A model generated the notes under the pieces. The model had not been told where the DNA came from and ran no database searches. It saw nothing but the letters and a program-made list of their open reading frames with translations. From the NCBI GenBank assembly GCA_029219465.1, contig JAQXTL010000004.1, forward strand, positions 124,001 to 188,000: DNA of 64,000 bases, in the 5' to 3' direction. The position numbers and the translations under genes are program-made. Origin of the DNA: Methanobacteriaceae archaeon (GTDB lineage Archaea; Methanobacteriota; Methanobacteria; Methanobacteriales; Methanobacteriaceae). Positions 55,528 through 62,378 of this stretch are shown one piece after another (position 1 is the stretch's first letter; the number at the start of each line of letters is the position of its first letter).

Positions 55528-58500
55528 CTACTTACCTTCCATTCTAATTTCATCTATAAGAGTATCTAAGTTTGCTGGTTTACCAAAGTCAGATTTCGCT
55601 GGATCTACACCGTCTTCACCAAACATAGTTTGGATAACGTTACCTTGGTTGTCAGTAACAAGACCAGTAGATTTAACTTGTAAATCTTGTAAAGCGTTAA
55701 CAAGTCTTCTTTGCATGTAACCGGATTGAGCGGTACGAATCGCTGTATCTACAAGACCTTCTCTACCCCCCATAGCGTGGAAGAAGAATTCAATTGGGTC
55801 AAGTCCAGATTTGTAACTTGAGTGAACAAATCCTTTCGCTTTTGCCCCTAACTCTCCTTTCTTGAAGTGAGGTAAGGTTCTGTTAATGTATCCTCTTTCG
55901 ATACGTCCACCCCTAACTGCTTGTTGTCCTACACAAGCAGTAATCTGAGTAAGGTTCAACATAGATGCCCTAGCACCAGTACGTGCCATTACTACAGAGT
56001 GGTTTTCTACAGCCATTACATGATCGTAAGGGTCATCAGGATATTGTTTACCCATATTGAGGTAATGTTCTGCAATTTGACCAGACATATCCCTAGCTTC
56101 CCCGAGAACTTGCATGATTTTCATCTCTAAAGTTTCTTTGAGACTTCTACCAGGTAAAGCTTCAAGATAACCTTCTTCGTAAGCTTCAACAAGCTTATCT
56201 ACTTCAGCCATCTTGTTTTGTAAGTGCTCATTAATACGATCTTGAGCTTCTTCAGGAATTTCTTCATCGTTTAAGGAAGTGGTAATTCCTGTTTTCATAA
56301 TTCCACAGATAGCAAGGTCAGTAGACCTGTCTAAGAATTCTTTAGCTCTTCCAGGACCGTATTCTTTAACAATTTTATCCAAAATTTGACCTGAGAAAGA
56401 ACCGTATGCACTTTCGTCAATAGCACCTTGTACAAGAATACCGTTTTTAATTACAACTTCAGCATCTTCAGGTGGGTAAACTACAGGACATTTGGAAATT
56501 TCAGCACTGTAAGCTAAGTTTAAGTCATTAGGTAATAATAAAGAGAATAACTCTTTACCAGTCCATTTTTCACCTTTGTCTTTGTAGATGAATGACTCTT
56601 CACTTTCATCAGGATCATATTTTAAAATCCACTGATTAGATTTGAATTTAGGGATTTTAAGGTGTGATTTTCTGATAATTTGTAAAGCTTGTTCTTCACT
56701 AAATTCAACACCATCACGTGTTAAGAGATAAGCACCACTAATGTGGTCGTGAATAGCACCGATAATAGGTCCACCAAACCTTGGAGATAAAATGTGTTCT
56801 TGTACACGCATTAATGATTTAGCCTCAGCACGAGACTCATCAGTTTGGAAAACGTGCATGTTCATTTCGTCCCCATCGAAATCTGCGTTGTATGGAGGAC
56901 AGACACATAAGTTTAACCTGAAAGTTTTATATGGTAAAACTCTTACTTCGTGTGCCATCATACTCATTCTGTGAAGGGAAGGCTGACGATTGAATAAAAC
57001 CATATCTCCATCTTTCAAATGTCTTTCAATAATAACACCTGGTTCTAAAGTTTCAAGGATGTATTCTTTAGTATCATCAGTAACTCTTCTTTTCCTACCG
57101 TTACTGATTACATAGTTTGCACCAGGGTGTATTTCAGGACCATTTTCGATGTATTGTTTCATTTCATCCATGTTCCATTCGTTAACGTAAGCAGGTACAG
57201 TAACTTCTTTTGCAATCATTTCTGGAACACCAACTTCGTTAATACTGATGTTAGGGTCCGGAGAGATTACGGTACGAGCAGAGAAGTTAACCCTTTTACC
57301 GGAAAGGTTGGATCTGAACCTTCCTTCTTTTCCTTTTAACCTTTGAGTTAAGGTTTTAAGTGGTCTACCTGATCTGTGTCTTGCAGGTGGAACACCACTA
57401 GCTTCGTTATCAAAGTAAGTGGTTACGTGATATTGTAATAACTCCCATAAATCTTCAACGATTAATTGTGGAGCACCTGCTTCCATGTTTTCAAGTAAAC
57501 GTTGGTTAATACGTAAGATATCAACGAGTTTGTGAGTTAAATCGTCTTCTGAACGTTCACCAGTATCTAAGATAATAGATGGTCTTACAGTTACTGGAGG
57601 AACTGGAAGAACAGTTAAAACTAACCATTCAGGTCTAGCTACTTCAGGGTTTACACCCAATACGAAAGAGTCTTCATCAGAAATTCTTTCGAGTCTTTCA
57701 CGAACTTCAGATGCAGTTAACTTGTAATCTTCATTTAAATTGTTTTCTTTGATAGCGTTTTTAAAGATGTTGTTTAAACGAGTGTTGTTTAATTCGTAAG
57801 AGCCATCAACATCATCATCTAAGTCAAATACTCTTTTTGCAAGTTTGCATAAGTAATCAACATCAACTAATTTTTCGCATAAACGTTCTAAGAGATTACT
57901 GTTAATTAAAAGCTTGTTTTGGAAGTATACCTCTTTTCCTTCAACAATGCTTTCTGCGATAGGTCCAATTTCTTCAATTGAAATGGAATCTGAACCGTAA
58001 ACTTCATTGAATACTTTTTTGAACTCGAAAAGTGGGTCAATACGTTGAACGATTGAAACTGGTTTATCTAAAACAATTTTGTCTTGGATAGTACCACAGT
58101 GAGGACATTCTTCCCCATCTTTTTTAGCAACTTCGTAAATCTTTTTGAGAATGTCACTAATGCTCTCATTTTGAGCTTTGAGTTCCATAATTTTAGTAGT
58201 GTACTCTTCGATTTCTTCATCAGTTAAAAGAGCACGACCACATTCGTTACAAGTTGAACGTAAAATTTTATGAATAACTTCCCCAAAACCAACATGAATA
58301 ACTGGTCTAGCTAATTCAATACTACCGAAGTGTCCTTGACAAACTCCACCTTTAGAACCACAGGTTCTACAAACTAAACTAGGATCAATAATACCTAAAT
58401 GAGGGTCCATTAACCCTTTGTCAATAGGAAAACCATCATCACCGTAAGTATCAGGATATTCAACAGTAACAACAGACATTTTACGAATATCCTCAGGAGA

Positions 58501-58548
58501 CATTAAACCAAAGTTAATTTTTTCAATTTTTTTAATAAATGCTTTCAT
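55528..58548 (-). CDS. rpoA1: DNA-directed RNA polymerase subunit A' with large clamp-region insertion
   Basis: The catalytic largest-subunit N-terminal part. The active-site loop [10 protein letters not shown] lies at residues 554-563, and the zinc site is [16 protein letters not shown] (60-75). At 1006 aa it is well over the usual archaeal ~870-900 aa. The excess lies in one block, residues about 166-275, between DKPVSIV and [13 protein letters not shown], which are adjacent in ordinary archaeal A'. The insert is helical and acidic, not low-complexity, with no motif I recognise. The rest aligns by eye to archaeal A'. It follows B' after 12 bases. Confidence 0.95.
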
Positions 58549-58560
58549 GTTTTTTGCTCC

Positions 58561-60825
58561 TTATGCTTTGTCTCCTAAAACTAATTTAGGGAAAATACAT
58601 AAACTCTTAAGTTCGTCTAATAATAATTTGAATGCATATGAAATTTCAACAGGATATGTTTCTACATCTCCACAGATAGGACAATACTTTTTGTGTTTAC
58701 TAGTATCTTCTACTGCTAACATACCACAGTTTTCACATACAACAGCTTCATACTTGTCAGATTCATCAAGTAATCTTTCTTTTAATGTTAATGCTGCACC
58801 GTGAGCAATAAGACAGTCTCTTTCCATTTCTCCAAATCTTAAACCACCTTCACGTGCTCTACCTTCGGTAGGTTGACGTGTGAGAACTTGTACTGGTCCT
58901 CTGGAACGAGCGTAAACTTTATCAGTAGTCATGTGGTGTAATTTTTGGTAGTATGCAACACCAACGAAAATTTCAGCATCGATTCTTTCACCAGTTACTC
59001 CGCTGTATAAGGATTCACATCCTGCAGATTCAAATCCGTTATCAAGGAGTAATTGTTGAATTTCTGCTTCGAGAGTTTGGTTGAATGGAGTAGCATCGAC
59101 TCTTTCACCTTCGAGACATCCTGCTTTACCTGCAACCATCTCAAGTACCTGTCCGATAGACATCCTGGATGGAATCGCGTGAGGGTTAACAATTAAATCT
59201 GGCACTACACCAAATTCAGTGAATGGTATGTCTTCAGGAGATAAGATTAAACCAATAACCCCTTTCTGACCGTGCCTGGACGCAAATTTGTCCCCAAATT
59301 CAGGTTGTCTTGTATCTCTTACTCTGATTTTAGCTAATTTGGAACCTTCAACAGTTTCAGATAAAAGAACTGCATCAACGATACCTTTTTCACCGTGTCT
59401 TACAGTAACAGAAGTTTCTCTTCTTCTATCTGCAACACTTCCGAAGTTTTCTTCTAAGAATCTTGGAGGTGAAGTTTTACCTATTAATACATCACCGGAA
59501 GTTACATATGATTCAGGGTTTACAACACCGTCACTGTCTAAGTTTCTGTAAGCTTCTTCAGATCTGTAACCTTTGACGTTCTTATCAGGAACTTCAAATT
59601 TGTCAACTTGACCACCAGCATATTTCTTTTCAGAAGTATCGTATGCTCTGAAGAATGAAGATCTTGCAAGACCTCTTTCTAAAGCACCTTTGTTAATAAC
59701 CATTGCGTCTTCCATGTTATATCCTTCGTAAGACATCAATGCAACAACAAAGTTTTGACCGGAGGGTCTTAAGTCGTAATTGGTTGAATCAATAATACGT
59801 GTTTTAACAATAGGAGTTTGAGGGTGGTGTAACAAGTGTGCTCTGGTATCAGTACGTAATGCGTAGTTAGATACATATAAACCTAAAGCCTGTTTTGTCA
59901 TACCTGCTTCCATTGTGTTCCTTGGAGAGGAGTTGTGATCGGAGAATGGAATAATTCCTGCACAAATACCTAACATGGTAGCTGGGTCAATTTCTAAATG
60001 AGTGTGTTCTTCACTTAAATCAGCTAAACTCATTGCAATATATGCATTTTCTTCTTCTTCAGCATCTAAGTATTCAATAAGACCATCATTAATTAAATTA
60101 TCCCAGGTTAATTTACCGTTAGCAACCTTATTCATGTGATCATCAGTTAAAAGAGGAACTCCGTTTTTAACGATGATTAAAGGTCTTCTTGCTCTTCCAG
60201 GATCGTTGAATATGTAAATCTCATCATTTTCTTCATAGTAAGTAATGTTCATTTCATGAGAAATTACACCATTTCTTCTTTTTTCTCTCATTTCTTGAGT
60301 GAAGCTAATAGGGTCTTCACAAAAACCTAAGAGTTTTCCGTTAATATAGATTTTAGTTTGAGGATGTTGGTTGTTAAATACAGGAGGTTGTTCATTAGTT
60401 TTAGTTTCAACAACATCTTCAACGATTTCTTCCACAGTTTCAGTCTCTTCAATAGTTTCAACAGTTTCTTCTTCAACAAACTCGATTTCTTCAACTTCTT
60501 CAACTGCTTCTTCAACAGTTTCAGTTAAATCTACTTGAGGGAAATCTTTTTTGTATGATTCCCATTTAGCTCTACGTTTGTCTTTTTTAAATGGAACATT
60601 TAAACTATCATCTGCTTTTAATTCCTCATCATCGAAATAAGATTCGATAAATTCTGCATGAGTATTAATTTTTTCTAATGCTTCTTCATCACCAGCAAGT
60701 TCTTCTTTTAATTGGTTGATTACTGCATCAACTTCACTAAAAGGAGCTAATCTTTCAAAACCAAAGTAGAAGAATGCTTTTTTCTCATCAGTTTCAGGTT
60801 TTTTATAATCAGACAAACATTTCAC
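58561..60825 (-). CDS. rpoB1: DNA-directed RNA polymerase subunit B' with N-terminal acidic extension
   Basis: The C-terminal part of the second-largest subunit. Conserved blocks include GQNFVVALMSYEGYNMEDAM, KFASRHGQKGV and a zinc ribbon CENCGMLA...CPICGD near the end. The usual archaeal B' is about 600 aa and begins near KIYINGKLLGFCEDP; here about 156 residues precede that. Residues 1-95 look like a folded, charged segment (AFFYFGFERLAPFSEVDA), and 99-145 are a Glu/Val/Thr-rich acidic linker. ATG 60825 overlaps the B'' stop by four bases. The extension is in the same strong operon, so it is a real part of the protein. Confidence 0.94.
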   Translation of the reverse strand: MKCLSDYKKPETDEKKAFFYFGFERLAPFSEVDAVINQLKEELAGDEEALEKINTHAEFIESYFDDEELKADDSLNVPFKKDKRRAKWESYKKDFPQVDLTETVEEAVEEVEEIEFVEEETVETIEETETVEEIVEDVVETKTNEQPPVFNNQHPQTKIYINGKLLGFCEDPISFTQEMREKRRNGVISHEMNITYYEENDEIYIFNDPGRARRPLIIVKNGVPLLTDDHMNKVANGKLTWDNLINDGLIEYLDAEEEENAYIAMSLADLSEEHTHLEIDPATMLGICAGIIPFSDHNSSPRNTMEAGMTKQALGLYVSNYALRTDTRAHLLHHPQTPIVKTRIIDSTNYDLRPSGQNFVVALMSYEGYNMEDAMVINKGALERGLARSSFFRAYDTSEKKYAGGQVDKFEVPDKNVKGYRSEEAYRNLDSDGVVNPESYVTSGDVLIGKTSPPRFLEENFGSVADRRRETSVTVRHGEKGIVDAVLLSETVEGSKLAKIRVRDTRQPEFGDKFASRHGQKGVIGLILSPEDIPFTEFGVVPDLIVNPHAIPSRMSIGQVLEMVAGKAGCLEGERVDATPFNQTLEAEIQQLLLDNGFESAGCESLYSGVTGERIDAEIFVGVAYYQKLHHMTTDKVYARSRGPVQVLTRQPTEGRAREGGLRFGEMERDCLIAHGAALTLKERLLDESDKYEAVVCENCGMLAVEDTSKHKKYCPICGDVETYPVEISYAFKLLLDELKSLCIFPKLVLGDKA

Positions 60826-62378
60826 CTCCTTATTTCAATTCCGTCCATTTGTTCAATGACATCGATAATTTCTTGATCGTCAGAACCTTCTGAAATATTA
60901 CATAATAATGCTAAGTTCTTTACCAAACCACAGTTAGGTCCCTCTGGAGTTTCGTTTGGACATATTTTACCAAATTGAGTTGGGTGCAAATCTCTTGCTT
61001 CGAAGTGAGGTTGACTTCTGGTTAAAGGAGATACAACACGTCTTAAATGAGAAAGGGTTCCCATGTAACTTGTTCTATCTAATAACTGACTAACCCCAGC
61101 TCTTCCACCTACCCAATTACCGGTAGCAATAGCATGTTTAATATTTTCAGTTAAAACATCACTACGAACAGCTTGTTTAATAGAAAGTTCTTTACCACGT
61201 GAAAGACTTCTTTCAAGTTGATAACTCATATCTCTGGTTAAGTTAGTAAAAGCAACTCTGAATAAATCTTCCATTAAGTCACCAGATACTCTAAGTCTTT
61301 TGTTAGTGTAGTGGTCCTTATCGTGTGGATCTCTTTTTTCTTCGATAACTTCTAATAACATTTCAGTCATTTCAGCAAGATAAATCGCTTTATCGTGACA
61401 TTTATCTTCCTCAATACCCATGTGAGGTAATAAATAACGATTGATTACGTCTTTAGCACGTTTATAACGGTAATCTTTAGGCATGTTTTTAGCTACTCTG
61501 TTACCGATGTATTTGATAGCAGCATCTTGTAAGTGTTGTCTTACTTCATCTTTATCCCCATTTCTAATGATGGATTGGTCAATGAAGTTATTCAATTCTT
61601 CAGAAGAAACTTGAATATCATCCGCAATCATCATTTGGAAGTTATTATCATCGGAAATAGCAGTAATTATTTCTTGATCAGTGGATAAACCAAGTGCTCT
61701 TAACAAAATAACTAATGGAATTTCTCCAGGAAGGTATGGGAATGAAATTCTTAAAAACGCTTTGTTTTTACGTGGTTTTTTGTATTCTAAAGTAATTCTA
61801 GCTTTGAAACCACTTTTAATAGAAGTTACAACAGCTTTTGCATGTCTGTCTTCAACTTCACCAATACGTTCAAGAATAATTTTATTCGGTGCAATTTCTT
61901 CCATAGTAACAACAGCTCTTTCAGAACCGTTTACAATGAAATATCCTCCTAAATCTTGAGGGTCTTCGTGTTTTTTAATTAATTCTTCATCACTAAGACC
62001 ATTAAGATGACAAATATCAGATTTAAGCATAACTGGTAATTCACCAATGTATACTTCTTCTAACGGATTATCTTCTCCTTCTTCATTTAATGCCATTTCA
62101 AGATACATATCTGCAGAATAATTTAAATTCCTAAGTCTTGCTTCAGTAGGGTCAATAATGCTTCTAGAACCATCAGCTTCTTTGTTAGATGGTTTTTCAA
62201 TGCGTATTTTCCCAGTCTTTAAAGTGTATTTACCATCATCTAAGGAAATAGGGTCAGTAATATCAATAATATTTTGAATCCTATTATTTACAAAATCATT
62301 GTAGGATTTTATATGATGGTCGACTAAATCATATTTATCGAAAAATGCATCAACTAATTTCCAATTATTCACTGTCAT
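60822..62378 (-). CDS. rpoB2: DNA-directed RNA polymerase subunit B''
   Basis: The N-terminal part of the second-largest subunit, split from B' in methanogens. From ATG 62378 (GGAGG at proper distance) it has about 518 aa. It opens MTVNNWKLVDAFFDKYDLVD and contains GGYFIVNGSERAVVTMEEIAPN. It ends soon after PNETPEGPNCGLVKNLALL, the point where the second gene takes over. The next gene overlaps it by four bases (ATGA). Confidence 0.95.
   Translation of the reverse strand: MTVNNWKLVDAFFDKYDLVDHHIKSYNDFVNNRIQNIIDITDPISLDDGKYTLKTGKIRIEKPSNKEADGSRSIIDPTEARLRNLNYSADMYLEMALNEEGEDNPLEEVYIGELPVMLKSDICHLNGLSDEELIKKHEDPQDLGGYFIVNGSERAVVTMEEIAPNKIILERIGEVEDRHAKAVVTSIKSGFKARITLEYKKPRKNKAFLRISFPYLPGEIPLVILLRALGLSTDQEIITAISDDNNFQMMIADDIQVSSEELNNFIDQSIIRNGDKDEVRQHLQDAAIKYIGNRVAKNMPKDYRYKRAKDVINRYLLPHMGIEEDKCHDKAIYLAEMTEMLLEVIEEKRDPHDKDHYTNKRLRVSGDLMEDLFRVAFTNLTRDMSYQLERSLSRGKELSIKQAVRSDVLTENIKHAIATGNWVGGRAGVSQLLDRTSYMGTLSHLRRVVSPLTRSQPHFEARDLHPTQFGKICPNETPEGPNCGLVKNLALLCNISEGSDDQEIIDVIEQMDGIEIRR

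Follow-up and report, generated by a model that had tools for sequence, protein, structure and literature searches.

Large RNA polymerase subunits can carry lineage-restricted extra domains, as illustrated by the BEAN and HABAS insertional domains (PMC11515920). The Hsp70 machinery may also serve polymerase function: in Salmonella, DnaK and DnaJ are reported to act in trans on the formation of the polymerase-DksA complex (PMC8262869). In class C (type III) J-proteins, a J-domain located on an unrelated protein fixes where Hsp70 acts. The J fold also occurs without its HPD tripeptide, as in Tim16/Pam16, a separate mitochondrial subunit pairing with Tim14. To our knowledge, no cellular RNA polymerase has a core subunit that incorporates a chaperone co-factor domain.

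The B' subunit encoded in the window, i.e. the whole stretch of 64,000 nucleotides analysed here from a Methanobacteriaceae archaeon, carries an N-terminal extension that shares features with each of these systems. As in class C J-proteins, a putative J-derived domain is attached to an unrelated protein, with an HPD retained in a sister clade; the fused partner, however, is a catalytic core subunit of RNA polymerase, and the window protein has no HPD. A predicted J fold devoid of HPD is common to Tim16/Pam16 and the window, and the model of an HPD-bearing relative (L110) also matches the HPD-less Tim16 chain 2guz_B (TM 0.67/0.76); Tim16, however, is a separate subunit paired with Tim14, whereas the B' domain is part of the polymerase chain. 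As a lineage-restricted addition to a large polymerase subunit, it recalls BEAN and HABAS but has another fold and is fused N-terminally at the archaeal B''/B' split. In the Salmonella case, DnaJ is a separate protein, whereas the J-domain considered here lies within the polymerase chain. A recent paper that surveys such insertional domains in polymerases (PMC11515920) has a main text containing none of the terms 'DnaJ', 'J-domain' and 'Methanobrevibacter', and no earlier description of the fusion was found in the open full-text literature searched, absence there being no proof of absence elsewhere.

The polymerase genes of the window are directly adjoining on the minus strand, in the order B'', B', A', as follows:

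60822-62378, minus strand: B'', Rpb2 domains 1-3, with a complete C-terminus (Pfam; 4qiw_B alignment)
58561-60825, minus strand: B' frame, 754 aa counted from GTG
58561-60354, minus strand: B' core, Rpb2 domains 4-7, from KIYINGK (Pfam Rpb2_4, Rpb2_5, Rpb2_6 and Rpb2_7; archaeal B chains in PDB)
55528-58548, minus strand: A', 1006 aa; an insertion confined to one clade follows DKPVSIVQ

With Rpb2 domains 4-7 encoded after B'', the window protein is an archaeal RNA polymerase B'. The original prediction counted about 156 extra residues before the usual B' start, which agrees with the domain boundaries: Rpb2_4 starts at residue 159 of the 754-aa frame, and archaeal B chains in PDB align with the window protein only from residue 157/158. 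About 154 residues without counterpart in ordinary B stand ahead of the universal Rpb2 core. That they could be ordinary B sequence, a normal lobe displaced by a different split site, deserves practically no credence. Indeed, on 4qiw_B (an archaeal B of 1123 residues), B'' matches positions 18-508 and the B' core positions 521-1122, leaving a gap of about 12 residues only, and extension-free species split B at the same place as the window. B'' and the B' core therefore cover archaeal B almost completely, and the displaced lobe is rejected. In several Methanobacteriaceae, including L116, L132, L136 and L140 as well as other frames longer than 1000 aa, B'' and B' form one unsplit gene; no J-domain is present at the junction in these four unsplit B genes read.

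The signals for translation of B' overlap the end of B'':

60822-60830, minus strand: rpoB' Shine-Dalgarno sequence AGGAGGTGA, which includes the B'' stop TGA at 60824-60822 (sequence; 16S 3' end; relatives)
60814-60816, minus strand: probable true B' start TTG (MSDYKK...), five bases after the Shine-Dalgarno sequence and conserved

B'' ends with AGG AGG TGA, the stop codon itself belonging to AGGAGGTGA, and the 3' end of the 16S of the same genome (...GGATCACCTCC) is complementary to this sequence. The region had been said to start at the exact four-base overlap with B'', i.e. at the GTG at 60825-60823. This GTG sits within the Shine-Dalgarno sequence, whereas five bases beyond that sequence comes an in-frame TTG (60816), which has an equivalent in 46 of the 46 extension-bearing sequences examined; the GTG is therefore rejected as the start for the TTG. 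The Shine-Dalgarno/stop/TTG arrangement is common to most relatives, while the upstream in-frame ATG and GTG codons come and go among them. Judged from the sequence, the window B' most likely begins MSDYKKPETDEKKAFFYFGF, which shortens it by three residues only.

Translation of the extension, also part of the original prediction, is borne out by selection at the codon level. Comparison of the three closest genomes gives a dN/dS of 0.09-0.17 for the domain formed by the first residues versus 0.45-0.69 for the linker that follows it; the domain being below the linker, the extension is therefore translated and selected as a protein. A B' starting near residue 156 behind an untranslated extension would fit with the non-ATG start codon, but is very improbable in view of this purifying selection, of the strong Shine-Dalgarno sequence ahead of a conserved TTG, and of the internal codons of the extension, which include no ATG and a single GTG, located 27 codons before the core.

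Three parts can be distinguished in the extension, residues being numbered from the TTG:

60631-60816, minus strand: J-like core, residues 1-62 (AlphaFold; HPD-clade profile; hhalign)
60541-60591, minus strand: tail FKKDKRRAKWESYKKDF at residues 76-92, conserved and restricted to the HPD-less clade (alignment of 24 sequences)
60355-60531, minus strand: acidic Glu/Val/Thr linker, residues 96-154 (composition; dN/dS; microrepeats)

The first ~95 residues were expected to be foldable, and AlphaFold models them with a mean pLDDT of 84 and a pTM of 0.73. A short helix I (9-17) and antiparallel helices II (26-39) and III (44-60) are predicted, at a pLDDT of about 90, in the order found in J-domains. 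The HPD tripeptide is missing between helices II and III of the window protein, which reads LAGDEE where the HPD clade has HPDNGGDEE, and the basic character of helix II has disappeared in the window lineage. Pfam DnaJ (PF00226) gives no match to the window protein. The top four Foldseek matches of the model are J-domains, all weak (E>1), so that the fold match is supportive and not conclusive. In the tail, F76, R82 and W85 are invariant among 24 sequences of the HPD-less clade, and K78 and D91 are conserved in at least 90% of them.

The linker has the composition foreseen from its VEE-type units, with 37% Asp/Glu versus 2% Lys/Arg, and its DNA contains weak 9- and 18-base repeats. In L069, L082, L084, L098 and L101, the linker includes one or two carboxypeptidase-regulatory/prealbumin-like beta-sandwich domains, which follow the J-like domain and precede the B' core; PF13620 (CarboxypepD_reg) scores in L069 and L101 (up to 5.6e-23), the three others being assigned by sequence likeness. 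Short N-terminal extensions of about 35-56 residues devoid of J-domain are found in L093, L097, L115 and L117. In L097, which lies within the HPD clade, all that is left is a Glu/Val/Thr-rich repeat, as though the J-domain had been removed and the linker spared.

The identity of the window domain is best seen through a sister clade including Methanobrevibacter millerae, where the corresponding B' extension is a J-domain that retains the complete HPDNGGD. J-domain spacing together with this motif is found at the B' N-terminus in eight genomes (L099, L103, L106, L107, L108, L110, L111 and L112), one of them a single contig of 2.54 Mb, with the pattern AYKFFGF....KIRDAFEELxxxHHPDNGGDEEKMxEIN. HPD is present in 8/8 of them; in a genome-wide DnaJ scan, two exceed the PF00226 cut-off of 27.8 bits (29.3 and 28.0 bits) and others fall just under it. 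In helix II of this clade, alignment inspection indicates that the R22-equivalent is kept, while the equivalents of K26 and R27, two basic positions that contact DnaK in E. coli, are often acidic.

Searched against PDB, the profile of the HPD family retrieves E. coli DnaJ chains (E 7.7e-6) plus many other J-domains. By hhalign, this family matches canonical J-domains, represented by seven sequences, at 97% (E 2.4e-11); between the window-type and HPD families, the match is likewise at 97% (E 1.1e-10). The window-type family alone has no significant match to the canonical J-domains (hhalign 0.4%) or, as a profile, to PDB sequences, and E. coli DnaJ scores only 2.9 bits against the window-type profile; the identification is therefore transitive and rests on the HPD-clade intermediate. 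In six-frame searches of 139 whole genomes, the HPD-family profile finds B' N-termini, DnaJ and very little else; it detects the window domain in its genome at E 7.1e-7, and DnaJ, recovered from almost all of the genomes, at about 1e-4 to 1e-7. With this profile, the window domain reaches 31.5 bits, the highest score among 20,000 shuffles being 15.2; for E. coli DnaJ, the corresponding values are 29.7 and 12.1 bits. The AlphaFold model of L110 (pLDDT 82) points in the same direction, as J or J-like domains make up nearly all of the best 50 Foldseek matches listed, with 5nro (a J-domain on DnaK, probability 0.99) and Tim14 (probability 1.00, TM 0.67) at the top; no Foldseek E-value below 0.001 was obtained for either the window or the L110 model. 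By two linked profile steps through the HPD clade, common descent of the window domain with J-domains is thus transitively supported, and very probable.

The genome of the window also encodes, at L244 449-1081 (G000:C17), a distinct protein of 210 aa in which a J-like motif reads KLHPDLHPD, and weak DnaJ matches occur at frames similar to L244 in several genomes of the genus. This protein is not an obvious source of the fusion, its HPD context being different.

The comparison of B' N-termini across relatives that had been proposed was carried out by searching 139 genomes of the family with the B' core for the junction, and 80 loci were read. Within the window's genus, taken as the one assigned to its genome in GTDB and including MAGs of Methanobrevibacter millerae and M. 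thaueri, a homologous N-terminal domain is present in 43 of the 60 loci read (window included), plus one partial locus. The remaining 17 comprise 16 short or non-homologous N-termini and one unsplit B. The profile search, with the domain in 44 genus genomes, agrees with this count. Other genera of Methanobacteriaceae do not carry it (0/16). Searches for a free-standing homologue in 152 genomes of the phylum gave only a weak chance-like match in an unrelated frame (G015, L251), and a search for a phage homologue gave none. The domain is also lacking in the M. smithii-like L102 and in L072 and L078; these related species live well, so the domain is not essential across the genus. Two different B' loci (L156/L231) occur in the metagenome-assembled genome RUG823 (G069), which suggests contamination.

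A tree of 71 B' core sequences, built with the extension left out, places the gain of the domain on one branch, after the separation of the M. smithii-like lineages and of L093. The presence of the domain requires four changes on this tree, read as one gain and three losses: in L097, in L072 and L078, and in the group of L068, L071, L073 and L104. Within the sister clade of the other carriers, the eight HPD genomes group together; the loss of HPD is placed at the base of the large clade containing the window, and HPD also disappeared in L114 and L120. The genus thus acquired the fusion a single time and lost it on about three occasions, a number that is provisional since many inner branches are weakly supported.

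Such losses could mean that the exposed B''/B' split merely gathers foreign segments and that the grafted J-domain drifts without an important role. The linkers, ranging from about 33 to 172 residues among relatives and in some cases housing CarboxypepD_reg domains, would fit with tolerated accretion of this kind, as would the unrelated 54-residue N-terminus of L093. Selection speaks against it. Over 14 genome pairs, dN/dS is 0.09-0.30 in the first 95 residues, 0.19-1.0 in the linker and 0.009-0.08 in the core, and the J region is below the linker in 14/14 pairs. Besides, H, P and D are fixed in the eight HPD genomes while their codons vary synonymously, and F76, R82 and W85 do not vary in the HPD-less clade. 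The B' domain is under purifying selection while the linker drifts, and the accretion reading is unlikely.

The original prediction saw in the extension a docking arm for an elongation or regulatory factor, or an interaction partner of the A' insertion. Its translated, foldable arm and acidic linker are retained here, and docking is possible; the J-domain-derived identity was missed. As a partner, the A' insertion does not match the distribution of the domain. This window-type insertion, about 100 residues long and flanked by DKPVSIVQ and YKLTASEVR, is confined to the window and its four closest relatives (L062, L063, L064 and L070), whereas over 30 genomes carry the B' domain with an A' that is either free of the insertion or was not readable; the insertion is therefore rejected as a general partner. 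A different, longer A' insertion, located before DKP, is seen in other members both with the B' J-domain (L076, L083, L091, L099 and L103) and without it (L071, L073, L081 and L104), which also argues against pairing. A factor unrelated to chaperones, possibly paired with A', would account for a folded domain tethered on an acidic arm, for the loss of HPD in most members and for their new conserved tail; given these distributions, we regard such an arm as rather improbable.

DnaK is found in 67/67 genomes of the genus and DnaJ in 63/67. The best overall explanation, which appears reasonably probable, is a single fusion of a J-domain to B', the domain being a co-chaperone in the HPD clade and a pseudo-J docking module in the window. 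The J-domain would have been added to the B' N-terminus at the B''/B' split, a point that presumably tolerates a chain end as judged from the natural split, and would be joined to the core by the acidic flexible linker. In the HPD clade, B' could then behave as a class C (type III) J-protein, holding DnaK at RNA polymerase and triggering its ATPase locally, e.g. during enzyme assembly or rescue under stress. The chances that the domain of this clade is still Hsp70-active seem evenly balanced. More tentatively, and on slightly less than even terms, the RNA polymerase core of the HPD clade may itself be an Hsp70 co-chaperone recruiting and activating DnaK, from which the window lineage would have made an HPD-less scaffold.

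In the window lineage, both HPD and the basic face of helix II are gone, so the domain should not stimulate Hsp70. It may rather hold a protein partner beside the polymerase in a way comparable to Tim16/Pam16, the first candidate being a member of the DnaK/DnaJ system. A docking role of the HPD-less domain is suggested because purifying selection continues and the tail is conserved; that the domain serves for docking in the window and does not stimulate Hsp70 could equally prove right or wrong.

Little attention has been given to domains added to the archaeal core enzyme at the B''/B' split, and the carriers of this one are common gut and rumen methanogens. If true, the co-chaperone reading would tie the assembly or rescue of polymerase to protein quality control. 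With the fusion, whether Hsp70 and transcription are directly linked can be put to the test. With lineages that have no domain, an HPD J-domain or an HPD-less J-like domain, or that have lost it again, one genus offers a natural experiment in the recruitment and repurposing of a J-domain.
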